Shown here one piece after another: positions 2,753-16,398 of a DNA stretch of 37,219 nucleotides. Positions within the stretch are counted from its first letter, which is position 1; the number at the start of each line of letters is the position of its first letter. Under the pieces are notes generated by a model. That model was not told where the DNA came from and made no database searches. It saw only the letters and a list, made by a program, of their open reading frames with translations. Both the position numbers and the translations under genes were made by a program. This DNA comes from a virus: positions 1 to 37,219 of the IMG/VR virus record IMGVR_UViG_3300033153_001433; one strand, given 5' to 3'.

Positions 2753-3019
2753 ATGACAGTTATTTCTGAAAACACAAGGTTTAGCTTAAGCCCTAAAAAT
2801 TTTCTTACCATTCTTGTGTTAGTAGGAAGTATGGTAGGCATGTATTATTCCTTACAGGCTCAGATTGAAATAGCTAAAGAATTGCCTGAACCAAGTCAAA
2901 CTCCTACAGAGCAAATGATAGAAATACAAAAAGAGTTGGTTTTTATTAAAACAGAAATGTTAGAAATGAAAGAAACTCTAAATAGGCTAGACGATAGAAT
3001 TTATCAACTAAGAAAATAA
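2753..3019 (+). CDS. Membrane-anchored coiled-coil protein, candidate lysis accessory (i-spanin-like)
   Basis: An 88-residue protein with a short basic N terminus, one transmembrane helix at about residues 17-36 (FLTILVLVGSMVGMYYSLQA), and a long charged helix with heptad spacing at about residues 52-88 (MIEIQKELVFIKTEMLEMKE onward). This N-in, C-out topology with an extended coiled coil is that of inner-membrane spanins, although holin-associated coiled coils can look similar. The gene immediately precedes an amidase and a holin, which supports a lysis role. No lipoprotein partner (lipobox LxxC) was found nearby or in an embedded frame, so the spanin reading stays tentative. Confidence 0.6.
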   Translation: MTVISENTRFSLSPKNFLTILVLVGSMVGMYYSLQAQIEIAKELPEPSQTPTEQMIEIQKELVFIKTEMLEMKETLNRLDDRIYQLRK

Positions 3020-3022
3020 TGA

Positions 3023-3436
3023 ATGAGAGCAATAAAAAAAATTATTGTTCATTGTTCTGCTACTCCACGAAATAAAGATTTTTCAGCAGAAGATATAAGA
3101 GACTGGCATGTTAAAGGAAACGGCTGGGACGATATAGGATATCATTTTGTTGTAAGGCTAAATGGACAAATAGAATATGGCAGAATGGTTGACAAGTATG
3201 GTGCCCATGTTTCGGGACATAACTATGATAGTTTGGGAATATGTTATATCGGTGGTATGGATAAAGAAATGAAGTGTTGGGAAGACACCAGAACTGATCA
3301 ACAAAAAGAATCTTTACTTTTACTTCTTAAAACATTAAAAAAATTTCACCCCGATGCAGTTGTTTATGGTCATAGAGATTTTTCAAGCAAAGAGTGTCCT
3401 AGTTTTGATGCAACAAAAGAATATAATGAATTATGA
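3023..3436 (+). CDS. N-acetylmuramoyl-L-alanine amidase endolysin (T7 lysozyme type, Amidase_2)
   Basis: A 137-residue single-domain zinc amidase that would cut the bond between N-acetylmuramic acid and L-alanine in peptidoglycan at the end of infection. It starts with the family's beta strand KKIIVHCSAT, in which H10 is the first zinc ligand. GYHFVVR follows with Y40, then H117 in YGHRDF, K123, and C125 in KECPSFD. The H-x5-K-x-C spacing (117, 123, 125) equals that of T7 lysozyme (122, 128, 130), so all key residues appear present. There is no signal peptide, consistent with release through a holin. The frame overlaps the next gene by four bases (ATGA). An ATG at 3019 in another frame is a short decoy. 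Confidence 0.95.
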   Translation: MRAIKKIIVHCSATPRNKDFSAEDIRDWHVKGNGWDDIGYHFVVRLNGQIEYGRMVDKYGAHVSGHNYDSLGICYIGGMDKEMKCWEDTRTDQQKESLLLLLKTLKKFHPDAVVYGHRDFSSKECPSFDATKEYNEL

Positions 3437-3837
3437 ATATATGGAGTAAGATATTTGGATCAGCAGGGTTGGAAGTGGCAGACAAGGTTAGTAATGTGGT
3501 TGATAGGTTTGTTCAAACTCCTGATGAAAAAATAGCGTTTAAAAAAGAAATGTTAGAAATATTTAATAACGCTGCTATTGATGAACAAAAGAATGTAACC
3601 GAACGCTGGAAAAGCGATATGTCATCAGATAACTATCTGTCTAAAACAGTTAGACCAGCTGTTTTAATATTTTTGATTTTTAGTACAATCTTGCTTATTT
3701 TTATTGATTCAGGATTTATTACCTTTGTAGTTGACGATGAGTGGAAGGATCTTTTAAAAGTTTTGCTAGTTACAGTAGTGGCTGCATACTTTGGAGGACG
3801 CTCATATGAAAAGGGAACTAAAATCAAAAATAAGTAA
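3433..3837 (+). CDS. Holin (GTA-type / 3TM phage holin superfamily)
   Basis: A 134-residue membrane protein. The N-terminal 70 residues are a helical cytoplasmic region (VVDRFVQTPDEKIAFKKEML and ERWKSDMSSDNYLSKTVRP), typical of the gene-transfer-agent-type holin family. It is followed by a hydrophobic span at about 76-91 continuing to 100, a short acidic turn, and a second span at about 106-120 (LLKVLLVTVVAAYFGGRSYEK). The KTVRPA entry into the first span and the C-terminal FGGRSYEK are diagnostic in my memory of the family. It would form the pore or lesion that releases the upstream amidase. It overlaps both neighbours (ATGA before, TAATG after), forming one lysis cassette inside the structural genes. 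Confidence 0.88.
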   Translation: MNIWSKIFGSAGLEVADKVSNVVDRFVQTPDEKIAFKKEMLEIFNNAAIDEQKNVTERWKSDMSSDNYLSKTVRPAVLIFLIFSTILLIFIDSGFITFVVDDEWKDLLKVLLVTVVAAYFGGRSYEKGTKIKNK

Positions 3838-4559
3838 TGGCAAAAATATCATCGTATCCAATACAGTCTGTAATAGTAGGAACTGATAAAGTTATAGGTA
3901 GTGATGCTATAAACGCCATGGCAACAAAGAATTTTACTTTTGATGATATTGCTATATTTTTAAACACAAACAATAAAATAGAAAGTAACGCTTTAAGGTA
4001 TCAATATCAAAACTGGAACACAGGAGATGTAAGAAGATCGGGAACTATATCTTTTGCTAACTCAGGAGCAGGAACACCAGCCTTTTCTTCTTTAACAACT
4101 TTTATGTTAAGTAAGTTTATGTTAAAATCAAACATAGACATATCTTCTTATTACTCAGTGCCATTAATATCTTCAGTAGTTTTAATTTCACAAACAGATA
4201 ATCCATCAAACTTTGGTGTATATGATTGGAATTCAGCAGTGCAAGATGGGGTAGAGACTGATTTTTTTGACATTGGAGTAACATTTAAAGCGGGTGCTGG
4301 TAACCTACAAAACGATAAAGATTATTTCATATCTTTGCTAACGTATGGCGGAGCAGTTTCTGGAGATAAAAACTATGTGTTTTCTCAGAATGTAGCTGCT
4401 AATCCTTGGGTAATAAATCATGGATTAAATAAGTATCCGTCAGTATCTGTTGTTAACTCAGCGTTAGAAACAGTATACGGAGATGTAGAGTATGATAGTT
4501 TAAACCAAGTAACAATAACTTTTAACGGCCCACAAACAGGAAAGGCCTTTTTTAACTAA
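3837..4559 (+). CDS. Small tail fibre-like / virion protein
   Basis: A 240-residue beta-rich protein. The N-terminal block (residues 1-42, with GTDKVIGSDA and TKNFTFDDIA) looks like the attachment segment of long fibres and matches the start of the 1323-residue fibre at 11483. The C-terminal 50 residues (WVINHGLNKYPSVSVVNS, GDVEYDSLNQVTITF, ending GKAFFN) follow a module often seen at the tips of phage fibres. The middle is unrecognised and carries SSYYSVPLIS and a DFFDIGVTFKAGAGNL stretch. Probably a short fibre or an adaptor for fibres, exposed on the virion. Starts on a TAATG junction with the holin. Confidence 0.7.
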   Translation: MAKISSYPIQSVIVGTDKVIGSDAINAMATKNFTFDDIAIFLNTNNKIESNALRYQYQNWNTGDVRRSGTISFANSGAGTPAFSSLTTFMLSKFMLKSNIDISSYYSVPLISSVVLISQTDNPSNFGVYDWNSAVQDGVETDFFDIGVTFKAGAGNLQNDKDYFISLLTYGGAVSGDKNYVFSQNVAANPWVINHGLNKYPSVSVVNSALETVYGDVEYDSLNQVTITFNGPQTGKAFFN

Positions 4560-4573
4560 CTAAAAAACAAAAC

Positions 4574-4966
4574 ATGAGAAAAATATTTTTAACATCAATA
4601 TTAAGTTTATTTACAATTTTAGCTTCAGCACAATTTATGGTAACTAGCACGCTTAGTTCACCAGCAGATGGAGAAGAAGTAAGTCTAGATAACTTAACAG
4701 ATAACATAGGAGTAATGTATTCTATGGATAAAATAAGTGCAGGAATAATGATGGATGGAGATGATTATAATTTAGTAGCAAGATATACTTTTGGAGAACA
4801 CTTGTTTGCATATGGATTAATGACTGAAGAAGAAGAAATTTCTTTAGGAGTGGGGTATGCATTAAATGTGTGGAACGAGTTATATATTGAGCCATCTTAT
4901 CTATTAGATATGGAATCAGAAGATAGTGAAGGAGAACTTAAATTAAGTTTAACTTATAAATTTTAA
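4574..4966 (+). CDS. Secreted outer-membrane beta-barrel-like protein, phage-encoded
   Basis: A 130-residue protein with a clear Sec signal peptide: MRK, a hydrophobic core (IFLTSILSLFTILA), and a cleavage site ASA|Q after residue 19, of the type common in flavobacterial exported proteins. The mature part alternates polar and hydrophobic residues in short strands (NIGVMYSM, ISAGIMM, YNLVARYTF, LFAYGLM, ISLGVGYAL, LYIEPSYLL, ELKLSLTYKF) separated by acidic loops. It ends in Tyr-Lys-Phe, like the C-terminal signal of outer-membrane barrels recognised by BAM. A virion protein would not need a signal peptide, so it likely acts in the host envelope during infection. Superinfection exclusion or surface remodelling are possible roles, unproven. 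It lies between a fibre-like gene and the giant fibres. Confidence 0.75.
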   Translation: MRKIFLTSILSLFTILASAQFMVTSTLSSPADGEEVSLDNLTDNIGVMYSMDKISAGIMMDGDDYNLVARYTFGEHLFAYGLMTEEEEISLGVGYALNVWNELYIEPSYLLDMESEDSEGELKLSLTYKF

Positions 4967-4986: not shown

Positions 4987-7626
4987 ATGGCAATTAATTT
5001 TTTACAAAATGTCTCGCTCAATAATACAGAGCTACAAAACTTTAAAGTACAGAACGTAACTTCTGATCCAACCGTAACTGGAGAGGGTCAGTTAATATAT
5101 AGATCAGACTCTAATGTTCTTAAATTTTATAATGGCTCTAATTGGATTACTTTAGATAGTAACGCAGGTACCGTAACTTCTGTTGGAGTATCTAGTAATT
5201 ACTTAACTATTGGTAGTTCACCAATAACAAGTAGCGGAACAATATCAGTTAATATGCCAAACTCTGGCGTTACAGCTGCATCATATACTCACGCAAGTAT
5301 TACTGTAAATGCACAGGGTATTGTAACAGCCGCATCAAATGGAACGGCTACATTAGGAGTAACATCATTCACTAATTCTAACGGAACATTTGTTTCTGCT
5401 GGAACTGCAAACTCTAGTGCTACAGGAGCAGTAACTATGGGTACCATAGATTTATCAGCAACTGGTTCTCCAAGTAGTTCTACTTTCTTAAGAGGTGATA
5501 ATGTATGGGCAGCGATTCCAGGGGGATATACTTCATGGACACTTCAAGGTGATTCAGGATCAAATTTATCAGTTACAAATGGAGTGACTGTAGATATAGC
5601 TGGTGGTACTGGAATTTCTACTGCAACAACAGCAACAGGAATGACTTTAACAAACACTGGTGTAACATCAGCTGTAGCAGGGTCAAACATATCTGTAAGT
5701 AGTGCAACAGGAGCGGTAACAATAGCGTATACTGGAGGAACAGGAACAATGAGTTCATGGAATTTGGTTGGGGACACAGGAAGTCAGTCTATAACAAATG
5801 GAAACAATGCTACTTTTATTGGAGGAACTGGTATTACAACGGCAGCAAGTGCAACTGATGATTTAACAATTACTCTTGATGATACATCGGTTACTGCTGG
5901 TTCTTATACTTCGGCTAACTTTACGGTTGATGCACAAGGTAGAATAACTGCCGCATCTAATGGTGGTGCAGGAACAATGACATCATGGACTATTGGATCA
6001 ACGTCAGGATCAAATCAAACTGTAAGTAATGGCGAGGTTGTAGACATAGTAGGTGGTACATATATAAGTGGAACTATTGGAGGAACAAGAACTGTTACTC
6101 TTTCTCACGACACTACTTCAAGAAGTGATACTACAAGTTCATCTTCACCAGGTTCAGCAGGAACATTTACAGCAGTTGATTCGGTTACTACAAATTCTAC
6201 AGGTCACATTACAGCTCTTAATGTAAAGACTGTTACAATGCCAACATCTCCTACTGTTTATGCAGGGTGGACTTTAGATGGCGATTCAGGATCAGCACAA
6301 ACTATAGCATCTGGAAATACAGCAACATTTATTGGAGGGTCAGGTATAACAACTGCTGTTAGTGCGACAGATGATTTAACTATAACTAACTCAGGAGTTC
6401 TAAGTAATGTAGCTGGAACAGGTATTGGAGTAAGTGGGGCAACAGGAAACGTAACAATATCTAACACAGGGGTAACAGCGGTTTCAGCTGGAACAGGAAT
6501 TAGTGTTAGTGGCTCAACAGGATCAGTAACAATAACAAATACAGTTACTAATACAGATGCAAATTATGCATTAAGTGTAGGTGCTGTATCATCAAATGAA
6601 TCTACATTATCATTAGTTGGTTCAAGTGGTGGTTCAACAACAACAGCTAAATTCTCAGGAACTACTTCTGAGATAGAAATAACAACTCCATCAACTGGTA
6701 ATGGTGGTGATATTACTATTGGATTACCAAGTAATGTTACTGTAACCACAAGTTTAAATGTAGGGACTGGAGGAATAGAAACAACAGGAGCATTAAATGT
6801 AACAGGAACAGGTCAATCAGCTTTTGCTGGTCAAGTAACTGTACCAACAACACCTTCAGCTTCAACAGATGCAGCTTCGAAAGCTTATGTATTAGCACAA
6901 GTTGGAGGAGTAGGGGCATTTCAGGGAGGATATAATGCAAGTACAAACTCTCCTGCATTATCTGGAGCTGCCAACGTAGCTTTAAATAATGGTGACTTCT
7001 TTGTAGTTACAGTAGCAGGTTCAGCATTCTTTAGTACGCAATTAGAACCAGGAGATTTATTATTTGCAAATGCAGATATTGCAGCAAGTTCATCTCCAGC
7101 TAAGTCTGACTATACGGTTGTTATAGCTGACGAAAACATTGCAGGTGCTGGAGCAACTGATGGTGCAACAGCAAAAGGGGTTGCAGGATTTGATTCAGCA
7201 AACTTTGGTGTAACAGCAAATGGATTTGTAACAATAGATAACTCTGGTGTAACAGCAGCATCATATGGTGGTGTAACTAAATCTTTAAATGCAACAGTTG
7301 ACGCTAAAGGATTTGTTACTGCAATGTCTGAAAATACTATTGCAATACCAGCTTCACAAATAACAGACTTTTGTCAAGCAGTTACAACTTGTATTGGAAA
7401 CAATCATAATGCAGTTGCAAATATTGGTAACAACTCAGCAACAACATACACTGTAACTCATAATTTAGGAACAAGAGATGTTATGGTGCAAGTTTATCGT
7501 AACGAATCTCCTTTTGATACTATTTTTGTGGGTGTTGAAAGAACGTCTACATCTGCCGTAACTCTTAGTACAGTAGAAGCTTTAGATACAAATGAGGCAA
7601 GAGTATTGATTACTGAGATACTTTAA
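4987..7626 (+). CDS. Giant repeat tail fibre 1
   Basis: An 879-residue Thr/Ser/Gly/Ala/Asn-rich fibre. N-terminal segment: GEGQLIYRSDSNVLKFYNGS, a motif common near the start of phage fibres. The shaft is built from repeats of the form (S/T)W.L.GDSGS..(V/I).NG..V(D/F)I.GGTGI(S/T)T, with copies at about residues 182, 256, 332 and 427, interleaved with TAGSYTSANFTVDAQGRITAASN-like spacers (compare residue 94 and about 307). Around 620-640 comes a TVPTTPSASTDAASKAYVL motif, typical of T4-type short-fibre shafts. The last 60 residues (YTVTHNLGTRDVMVQVYR...ARVLITEIL) are a common fibre tip. Likely a trimeric receptor-binding or shaft fibre. Promoter and dyad follow the stop. Confidence 0.9.
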   Translation: MAINFLQNVSLNNTELQNFKVQNVTSDPTVTGEGQLIYRSDSNVLKFYNGSNWITLDSNAGTVTSVGVSSNYLTIGSSPITSSGTISVNMPNSGVTAASYTHASITVNAQGIVTAASNGTATLGVTSFTNSNGTFVSAGTANSSATGAVTMGTIDLSATGSPSSSTFLRGDNVWAAIPGGYTSWTLQGDSGSNLSVTNGVTVDIAGGTGISTATTATGMTLTNTGVTSAVAGSNISVSSATGAVTIAYTGGTGTMSSWNLVGDTGSQSITNGNNATFIGGTGITTAASATDDLTITLDDTSVTAGSYTSANFTVDAQGRITAASNGGAGTMTSWTIGSTSGSNQTVSNGEVVDIVGGTYISGTIGGTRTVTLSHDTTSRSDTTSSSSPGSAGTFTAVDSVTTNSTGHITALNVKTVTMPTSPTVYAGWTLDGDSGSAQTIASGNTATFIGGSGITTAVSATDDLTITNSGVLSNVAGTGIGVSGATGNVTISNTGVTAVSAGTGISVSGSTGSVTITNTVTNTDANYALSVGAVSSNESTLSLVGSSGGSTTTAKFSGTTSEIEITTPSTGNGGDITIGLPSNVTVTTSLNVGTGGIETTGALNVTGTGQSAFAGQVTVPTTPSASTDAASKAYVLAQVGGVGAFQGGYNASTNSPALSGAANVALNNGDFFVVTVAGSAFFSTQLEPGDLLFANADIAASSSPAKSDYTVVIADENIAGAGATDGATAKGVAGFDSANFGVTANGFVTIDNSGVTAASYGGVTKSLNATVDAKGFVTAMSENTIAIPASQITDFCQAVTTCIGNNHNAVANIGNNSATTYTVTHNLGTRDVMVQVYRNESPFDTIFVGVERTSTSAVTLSTVEALDTNEARVLITEIL

Positions 7627-15604: not shown

Positions 15605-15829
15605 ATGGATATTAGAAAAATTTCAGTTGGTTCTGATTATAAATCAGGATCTATGCACTATATAGTAAATCAACCCGTATTAGGTGGAGACTATAAAATA
15701 CATTTAATACAAGCTAACGAAAAGACGCAGTCATATAAACTTTGGGTTATTAAAGATCAAGAAGTTTTAATATGGAAAGAGTTTTTGTATACGCTTCCAA
15801 TAACTTTAGAATACAACATAAACTTTTAA
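15605..15829 (+). CDS. 74-residue protein, unknown function
   Basis: A 74-residue protein, start MDIRKISVGSDYKSGSMHYI, predicted to be mainly beta strands (YKIHLIQAN, SYKLWVIKDQEVLIWKEF, ITLEYNINF). Small proteins of this pattern lie near terminase genes in aquatic phages as far as I recall, but I know no function. Its TAA overlaps the ATG of the following gene (TAATG at 15827-15831), which also decides the start of that gene. Confidence 0.7.
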   Translation: MDIRKISVGSDYKSGSMHYIVNQPVLGGDYKIHLIQANEKTQSYKLWVIKDQEVLIWKEFLYTLPITLEYNINF

Positions 15830-16398
15830 TGAGGTCGGTGCACTCGTTTATTGTAGAGCCTGTAAACAACAGGAGATATGATAATATAAAAGAATTTGGT
15901 GACACACAGTTTATAACTAGCGTATCTGAAGAAGATCATAAAGCATCTAATCGATTTGGAATAGTAAAAGAACTGCCTTTAAATTATAAGGGTGAAGTCC
16001 AAAAAGGTGACACTCTTTTAGTTCATCACAATGTATTTAAGTTTTATAATGATATGTATGGTAGACGTAAAAGCGGTAGAAGTTTTTTTAAAGATAATTT
16101 ATTTTTTGTAGAGCACGATCAGTTTTTTTTATTTAAAAATAAAGATGGATGGAAGTCTCATGGTAAGTATTGTTTTATAAAACCTCTGTTAGCAAAAAAA
16201 GCATTTTTAGAAAAGGGTGCTAAATACGAAAGACTACAAGGAACTATAAAATATATCAACGAAGAATTAATATCTTTAGGTTTTTCAGTTGGAGATGTTG
16301 TTATATATCAACCTGAAAGCGAATATGAATTTACTGTAGATGGTGAATTGCTTTATCGAATGTTTACTAATAATTTAACAACTATACTAAATGAATAA
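15829..16398 (+). CDS. GroES-like co-chaperonin, apparently two tandem GroES-like domains
   Basis: I take the ATG at 15829 (189 residues) over the in-frame ATG at 15772, because it forms the same TAATG junction used throughout and avoids a 58-base overlap. The C-terminal half (about 113-189) follows GroES: YCFIKP (strand 1), RLQGTIKYI, GFSVGDVVIYQP, SEYEFTVDGELLYRMF, LTTIL. The first half has a similar order: FIVEPV, NRFGIVKELP, GEVQKGDTLLVHHNVF, NLFFVEHDQFFLF. T4 Gp31 and classical GroES are single domains of about 100 residues, so a tandem arrangement is unusual. It could cap a host GroEL to fold the capsid protein. A divergent beta-barrel protein without chaperonin function is the alternative. 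Lies in the packaging block. Confidence 0.7.
   Translation: MRSVHSFIVEPVNNRRYDNIKEFGDTQFITSVSEEDHKASNRFGIVKELPLNYKGEVQKGDTLLVHHNVFKFYNDMYGRRKSGRSFFKDNLFFVEHDQFFLFKNKDGWKSHGKYCFIKPLLAKKAFLEKGAKYERLQGTIKYINEELISLGFSVGDVVIYQPESEYEFTVDGELLYRMFTNNLTTILNE

Follow-up and report, generated by a model that had tools for sequence, protein, structure and literature searches.

A predicted outer-membrane barrel carried by unrelated tailed phages and by the chromosomes of small-genome marine Flavobacteriales

Introduction

Outer-membrane proteins encoded by phages are known as single cases, most of them from enteric prophages. Lom of phage lambda is a phage-encoded, Ail/OmpX-like barrel whose gene lies near the tail genes. 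Lc of the temperate phage PA-2 is a sixteen-strand trimeric porin, for which replacement of the receptor was proposed as the benefit. T5 Llp and phi80/N15 Cor are small phage proteins of the host envelope, and they prevent adsorption (PMC9586334; PMC11436027). Llp is a periplasmic lipoprotein that jams and inactivates the outer-membrane receptor FhuA (PMC9586334); Cor acts on FhuA, too (PMC11436027).

Here, we analyzed one stretch of DNA, a virus record of 37,219 bases that is called the window below. Its ORF at 4574-4966 was read in an initial annotation as the gene of an outer-membrane-like protein; that reading stands, but it missed the chromosomal family of the host and the wide spread among phages. 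Phage-encoded outer-membrane barrels are already known; what is new in our analysis is one host-lineage family that is common to unrelated phages, and its pairing with a second gene.

Results

The barrel gene and its export signal

The barrel gene (plus strand, 4574-4966) encodes a protein of 130 residues. The protein begins with MRKIFLTSILSLFTILASA, continues behind the cleavage site with QFMVTS and ends in LSLTYKF; its mature part is ∼111 residues in length. Relatives at 76-100% identity were found in 17 viral contigs, the one at 100% overlapping the window itself. Among ten members of the clade that holds the window copy (the window clade), dN/dS is 0.10 for the mature part, 0.08 for the strands, 0.12 for the outer loops and ∼1.0 for the signal peptide. 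Judged by the sequence comparison, the ORF is a real gene and not a chance one, owing to the relatives in 17 viral contigs and the dN/dS of 0.10 in the mature part.

The Sec signal peptide covers residues 1-19 (4574-4630, plus strand), which the structural model described below folds as a helix at 2-17. It is composed of MRK, a hydrophobic core and ASA, followed by cleavage before Gln20; the initial annotation had given the same end (ASA|Q). It is without lipobox; Cys is absent from the whole 130-residue protein, cleavage site included, and thus there is no lipoprotein signal. The sequence of the signal peptide drifts (dN/dS ∼1), yet every copy retains one, and SAQF is conserved. Such a drifting but retained signal peptide, together with the low dN/dS of the mature part, suggests that export and the mature protein both are under selection. 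The C-terminal Phe, also pointed out before, is present in the window copy, but it is replaced by Leu in two relatives (L027 and L028).

Predicted fold of the protein

An AlphaFold2 (AF2) model of the window protein was built with 29 relatives. Following the signal helix, the model forms an eight-strand antiparallel closed barrel (pLDDT 83, pTM 0.70), with the strands at residues 20-27, 45-51, 54-61, 64-73, 77-83, 89-100 (with one break), 103-112 and 121-129. In structural alignment, the model matches best OprF-N (4rlc, Z 12.7), one designed transmembrane barrel (Z 12.1) and OmpA (1qjp, Z 11.9); the identity of the window protein to solved barrel structures is only 13-14%. Avidins come next, with a Z of 11.4, ∼1.3 below the best outer-membrane barrel. 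The AF2 model of one host relative (L083, pLDDT 78) has the same strand order, and its long loop 2 is of low confidence.

The initial annotation had set a closed eight-strand barrel against a soluble globular fold. The model is of the former kind, with OprF-N and OmpA at the top of its matches, though avidins are close by fold alone. Since avidins reach a Z of 11.4, membrane and soluble barrels are indistinguishable by fold alone, and we rejected the fold in itself as proof of membrane topology.

Sequence features of an outer-membrane barrel

Seven of the eight predicted strands clearly show two faces, one hydrophobic and one of polar or small residues, and strand 5 is weak; this bears out the amphipathic pattern that had been noticed before. 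The assignment of the hydrophobic face to the outside comes from the sequence. On the polar, predicted inward face, Gly46, Gly57, Gly92, Gly94 and Arg70 are each present in at least 92 of 93 members. Arg70 (strand 4, 4781-4783) is Arg in all 73 rows of the first set and in 92 of the 93 rows of the second. Glu106 (strand 7, 4889-4891), located on the same face, is Glu or Asp in 91/93 rows, and it is likely the partner of Arg70.

The C-terminal residues 123-130 (KLSLTYKF, 4940-4963) form a putative β-signal for the BAM machine. The strict form of this signal (zxGxxOxO) fits 29/29 host copies and 46/64 viral copies, and none of 729 neighbouring ORFs. With Ser in place of Gly, the window copy fits only the relaxed form, which is found in all 93 family members versus 2/729 other ORFs.

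Long connections (∼5-19 residues) join strands 1-2, 5-6 and 7-8, and the turns on the opposite side are mostly of 2-3 residues. Predicted extracellular loop 1 (residues 28-44, 4655-4705) contains one short helix at 38-43 in the AF2 model. Predicted extracellular loop 2 is minimal in the window copy (residues 62-63, 4757-4762); all these features lie on the plus strand. We measured the length of loop 2 as the spacing between the conserved Gly57 and Arg70, which is 12 in the window copy, 12-32 in hosts and 12-18 in viruses (P = 5e-7, uncorrected for relatedness, the rows not being independent). Many host copies have a long loop 2, and it is His-rich in 8/31 of them. In the host copies L099, L101, L106, L108, L110 and L085, it is long, acidic and His-rich (for example, SEHAHEGHDHEEDED) and looks like a surface loop for metal binding; such a loop is absent from the viral copies of the first set.

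The β-signal, the long outer loops with short turns opposite and the invariant Arg/Glu on the polar face argue for an outer-membrane rather than a soluble barrel. Combined with the modelled barrel and its OprF-N and OmpA matches, this predicted inside/outside pattern of residues agrees with the exported outer-membrane-like protein of the initial annotation, and the window protein is very probably an exported outer-membrane barrel. Its barrel, membrane location and loop topology are predictions from model and sequence. In Pfam, host homologues approach PF13505 (OMP_b-brl), with a best E-value of 3.8e-5 under the curated cut-off; host and T4-like copies score 15.6-24.4 bits versus the cut-off of 28.7, and the window copy has no match to this family. 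One link to type IX secretion, through PorP/SprF (Pfam E-value 0.036, below cut-off), was considered and rejected.

Gene neighbourhood in the window and in other phages

In the window, the barrel gene is preceded by three genes on the plus strand: one N-acetylmuramoyl-L-alanine amidase (endolysin) gene at 3023-3436 (PF01510, E-value 5e-13; phrog_822, 1.5e-57), one holin-like membrane protein gene at 3433-3837 (phrog_3427 holin, 2e-22) and, directly upstream of the barrel gene, one gene of a 240-residue fibre-like protein at 3837-4559, the C-terminus of which matches phrog_34633 and other uncharacterised phage families. Directly downstream (4987-7626, plus strand), one repetitive, low-complexity, fibre-like protein of 879 residues is encoded; it matches phrog_8309, an uncharacterised family, with an E-value of 2.6e-16. 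'Fibre' is a reasonable but putative name for both neighbours. Both genes are kept in the window clade; in loci that are long enough, the barrel gene sits between the 240-residue and ∼875-residue fibre-like genes, after amidase and holin.

Other phages place the barrel gene beside ribonucleotide reductase, beside the head genes for prohead protease and scaffold, or beside endolysin-like or thioredoxin-like genes. Adjacency to fibre genes had earlier been taken to point to receptor masking. The adjacency itself is found in the window clade, but it is particular to this clade, and owing to the non-fibre neighbours in other phages it is only weak evidence for masking in general. A promoter scan returned fewer sites than in shuffled sequences.

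Several other proteins of these phages may be mentioned. Just before the amidase gene, the window encodes one 88-residue protein (2753-3019), possibly an inner-membrane spanin, which has a single membrane helix at its N-terminus and likely a coiled coil; proteins like it are encoded ahead of the lysis genes in L046, L202 and L204. At 15772-16398, the window encodes a 208-residue protein that matches a phage co-chaperonin GroES family (phrog_13932, E-value 1e-18); GroEL is encoded by L043, a further barrel-carrying phage. A lipoprotein-like phage protein of 365-375 residues (lipobox ..SC..PKKCC) recurs in barrel-carrying phages (L046:5234-6331, L038:9599-10714 and L179:4802-5929).

A two-helix membrane protein is encoded beside the barrel gene in many phages

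Of the 86 viral sequences that do not belong to the window clade, 56 have, on the same strand and 16-167 bp away from the barrel gene, the gene of a 74-75-residue, two-helix membrane protein (for example, L055:8482-8706). It lies downstream of the barrel gene in 48 and upstream in 8; several of the 30 sequences counted as partner-negative are cut by contig ends. Because the gene order changes while the adjacency persists, these sequences suggest that the barrel and the two-helix protein work together. The partner gene is absent from the window clade (0/17).

Homologues of the partner, at 31-43% identity, are present in 42/52 genomes of the host family described below, where they are either on a different contig from the barrel gene or distant from it. 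In both examples read, the host homologue is beside a polA-like gene; in L115 and L116 (1208-1725), the two-helix protein adjoins a similar membrane protein of 70-71 residues beside that polA-like gene.

The barrel family is chromosomal in small-genome Flavobacteriales

A profile search identified two relatives in Flavobacteriales MAGs, in plainly bacterial surroundings. Judged by the translations of the neighbouring genes, one flank holds a hisS-like gene and the opposite flank a metallopeptidase-like gene; cinA-like and ribosomal-protein-like genes follow at a greater distance. Among 396 Flavobacteriales genomes, 48 gave strong matches; all of them are 0.8-2.1 Mb in size, and all but one possess a single full copy. 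Within one small-genome Flavobacteriales family, 41/52 genomes carry the homologue, and the 11 without match may be incomplete. In this family, the barrel gene is flanked by an alaS-like gene and by a porin-like one that is close to Alginate_exp; the hisS-like neighbour belongs to other genomes of the order. One host genome, G099, carries a tandem pair of diverged copies next to an alaS-like gene (L091:982-1932).

These comparisons place the barrel in a family that is native to small-genome marine Flavobacteriales and has a fixed chromosomal place there. From the gene family and the similar G+C (0.35 in the window phage, 0.32-0.34 in the Flavobacteriales lineage), we infer that the window phage infects this lineage.

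Spread and ancestry of the viral copies

The window carries terminase (phrog_6681 type) and portal (phrog_6547 type) genes, which identify it as a tailed phage; we call it podovirus-like because no tape measure gene was recognised among the window proteins scanned. A 12.9 kb stretch near its start, the only one compared, matches a 64,342-base IMG/VR contig at 100% identity. The barrel gene is present in ∼117 viral contigs, which yield 103 distinct viral gene sequences, a few of them cut by contig ends. Among the carriers are T4-type phages (terminase phrog_2, portal phrog_213, major head protein phrog_138, protease phrog_207), one siphovirus with tape measure gene, relatives with the terminase type of the window, one chaperonin-carrying phage and contigs of 94-210 kb.

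In trees of 73 and 93 proteins, two changes are needed to explain the virus and host labels. Constraining all viral copies to one clade is not rejected and even gives a higher likelihood (p-AU 0.616 and 0.609), in trees whose backbone is weakly supported. Many separate captures from hosts are not supported, since the single viral clade is not rejected, albeit on a weak backbone. The simplest reading of the trees would be that the gene was captured once or twice long ago and then exchanged between phages; the fixed host locus suggests the direction from host to phage.

By tblastn, neither the window copy nor a T4-like or host copy matched any of 50,697 phage records. PADLOC gave no match. In PHROG, the window copy matched nothing and its relatives just two families, both marginally. 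Pfam gave no match of the window protein to the Ail_Lom family up to an E-value of 1, and a sequence search of the PDB none beyond one chance match (E-value 0.7). In open-licence papers, our literature search found no description of the barrel family.

Discussion

For the phages, the barrel is probably a means to alter the surface of the infected cell or to maintain it. Our leading reading, held tentatively, is that the phage inserts the barrel into the outer membrane of its host and thereby changes adsorption, so that other virions would find a poorer target in the infected cell and in its debris. The barrel would be expressed during infection, probably late because its gene lies between lysis and fibre genes. 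The protein would then be exported by Sec and inserted by BAM into the host outer membrane, where it may replace or dilute the host's own version. The phage version would present a fixed, short loop 2, where loop 2 of the host varies widely. Changed adsorption may benefit the phage through superinfection exclusion, which is plausible, and through protection of the progeny. The variable length of loop 2 in hosts versus its short form in phages speaks for this reading, and T5 Llp (PMC9586334) and Cor (PMC11436027) provide precedents for adsorption control. Against it, the window clade conserves its outer loops (dN/dS 0.12), with no sign of an arms race, and masking does not account for the partner, a small membrane protein with homologues in the host.

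Nearly as likely, and a serious contender, is the supply of envelope parts: the phage copy would keep the envelope sound after host gene expression is shut off, and the partner would be the second supplied part. Cyanophages likewise carry psbA, their own copy of an important host protein. The host barrel gene is single and widely kept (41/52 genomes); the barrel, loops and β-signal are kept in phage copies. The partner, too, has host homologues (42/52 genomes, unlinked there), and it adjoins the barrel gene in 56/86 viral sequences outside the window clade. The barrel is common to unrelated phage types, and carriage by phages with presumably different fibres fits such a supply as well as or better than the masking of one receptor. 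However, the partner is absent from the window clade (0/17), and the viral copies form what looks like one or two specialised clades of old origin (one clade, p-AU 0.61) rather than repeated copies of the local host gene. In a broader and rather doubtful version, barrel and partner would constitute a two-gene envelope module, which would have been captured once or twice from a lineage of small-genome marine Flavobacteriales, been traded among unrelated tailed phages since then, and take over or seal the envelope of the infected cell; the window phage would hold the barrel half only.

A role at the outer membrane during the final stage of lysis, where the barrel would stand in for an outer-membrane spanin, is improbable. 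The window gene does follow amidase and holin shortly, and in L046 and L185 the barrel gene comes after a holin-like protein and an M15-type endolysin-like gene (names read from translations). However, the protein lacks the lipobox, with its Cys at the cleavage site, that marks outer-membrane spanins; the conserved chromosomal homologue of the host argues against a lytic function, and T4-like phages hold the barrel gene among head genes, others beside ribonucleotide reductase. Still less credit is due to an exported barrel that is soluble, resembles avidin or lipocalin and acts in the periplasm or extracellularly. Avidins align within ∼1.3 Z units of the best outer-membrane barrel (Z 11.4), but every member has the relaxed C-terminal β-signal, the polar face has invariant Gly and Arg/Glu, the long loops are on one side with short turns on the other, and host homologues approach OMP_b-brl. 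A tail or fibre part of the virion, as the position between two fibre-like genes in the window-clade loci examined might suggest, is very hard to reconcile with the retained signal peptide, the bacterial family of chromosomal homologues and the other locations of the gene in other phages.

Under adsorption control, our leading reading, the host barrel would be a candidate for a receptor that the phages of an uncultured marine group have in common. Under envelope supply, the gene would instead be an auxiliary gene of structural, not metabolic, kind. The phages that carry this one host-lineage barrel family differ in the type of head, tail and genome, and the barrel is often accompanied by a second protein with homologues in the host; such a distribution would be expected if the phages infecting this host group had a general need for it, comparable to psbA in cyanophages.

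Comparison with known systems

Like the OmpA/OmpX-type eight-strand barrels (the OprF N-domain 4rlc, OmpA 1qjp, Ail, NspA; PF13505), the window protein has a predicted closed eight-strand barrel, Sec signal peptide, β-signal, long outer loops, short turns and charges that are predicted to point inwards. Different from them, it is 13-14% identical to the solved structures and has no PF13505 match, the host members scoring under the cut-off. Viral protein structure libraries hold many outer-membrane barrels, including A0A218MMM7 of an uncultured virus (BFVD, uncharacterised), which is 38% identical, has the same fold and evidently belongs to the same family. Different from Llp and Cor, the window protein is without lipobox and is predicted to be a barrel. 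It resembles PA-2 Lc in being a phage-borne homologue of a host outer-membrane protein, but eight strands are predicted here, and no lysogeny is indicated for the window phage. Lambda Lom is likewise a small phage-encoded outer-membrane barrel near tail-fibre genes; different from Lom, the window barrel belongs to a host-lineage family that is common to unrelated phages.
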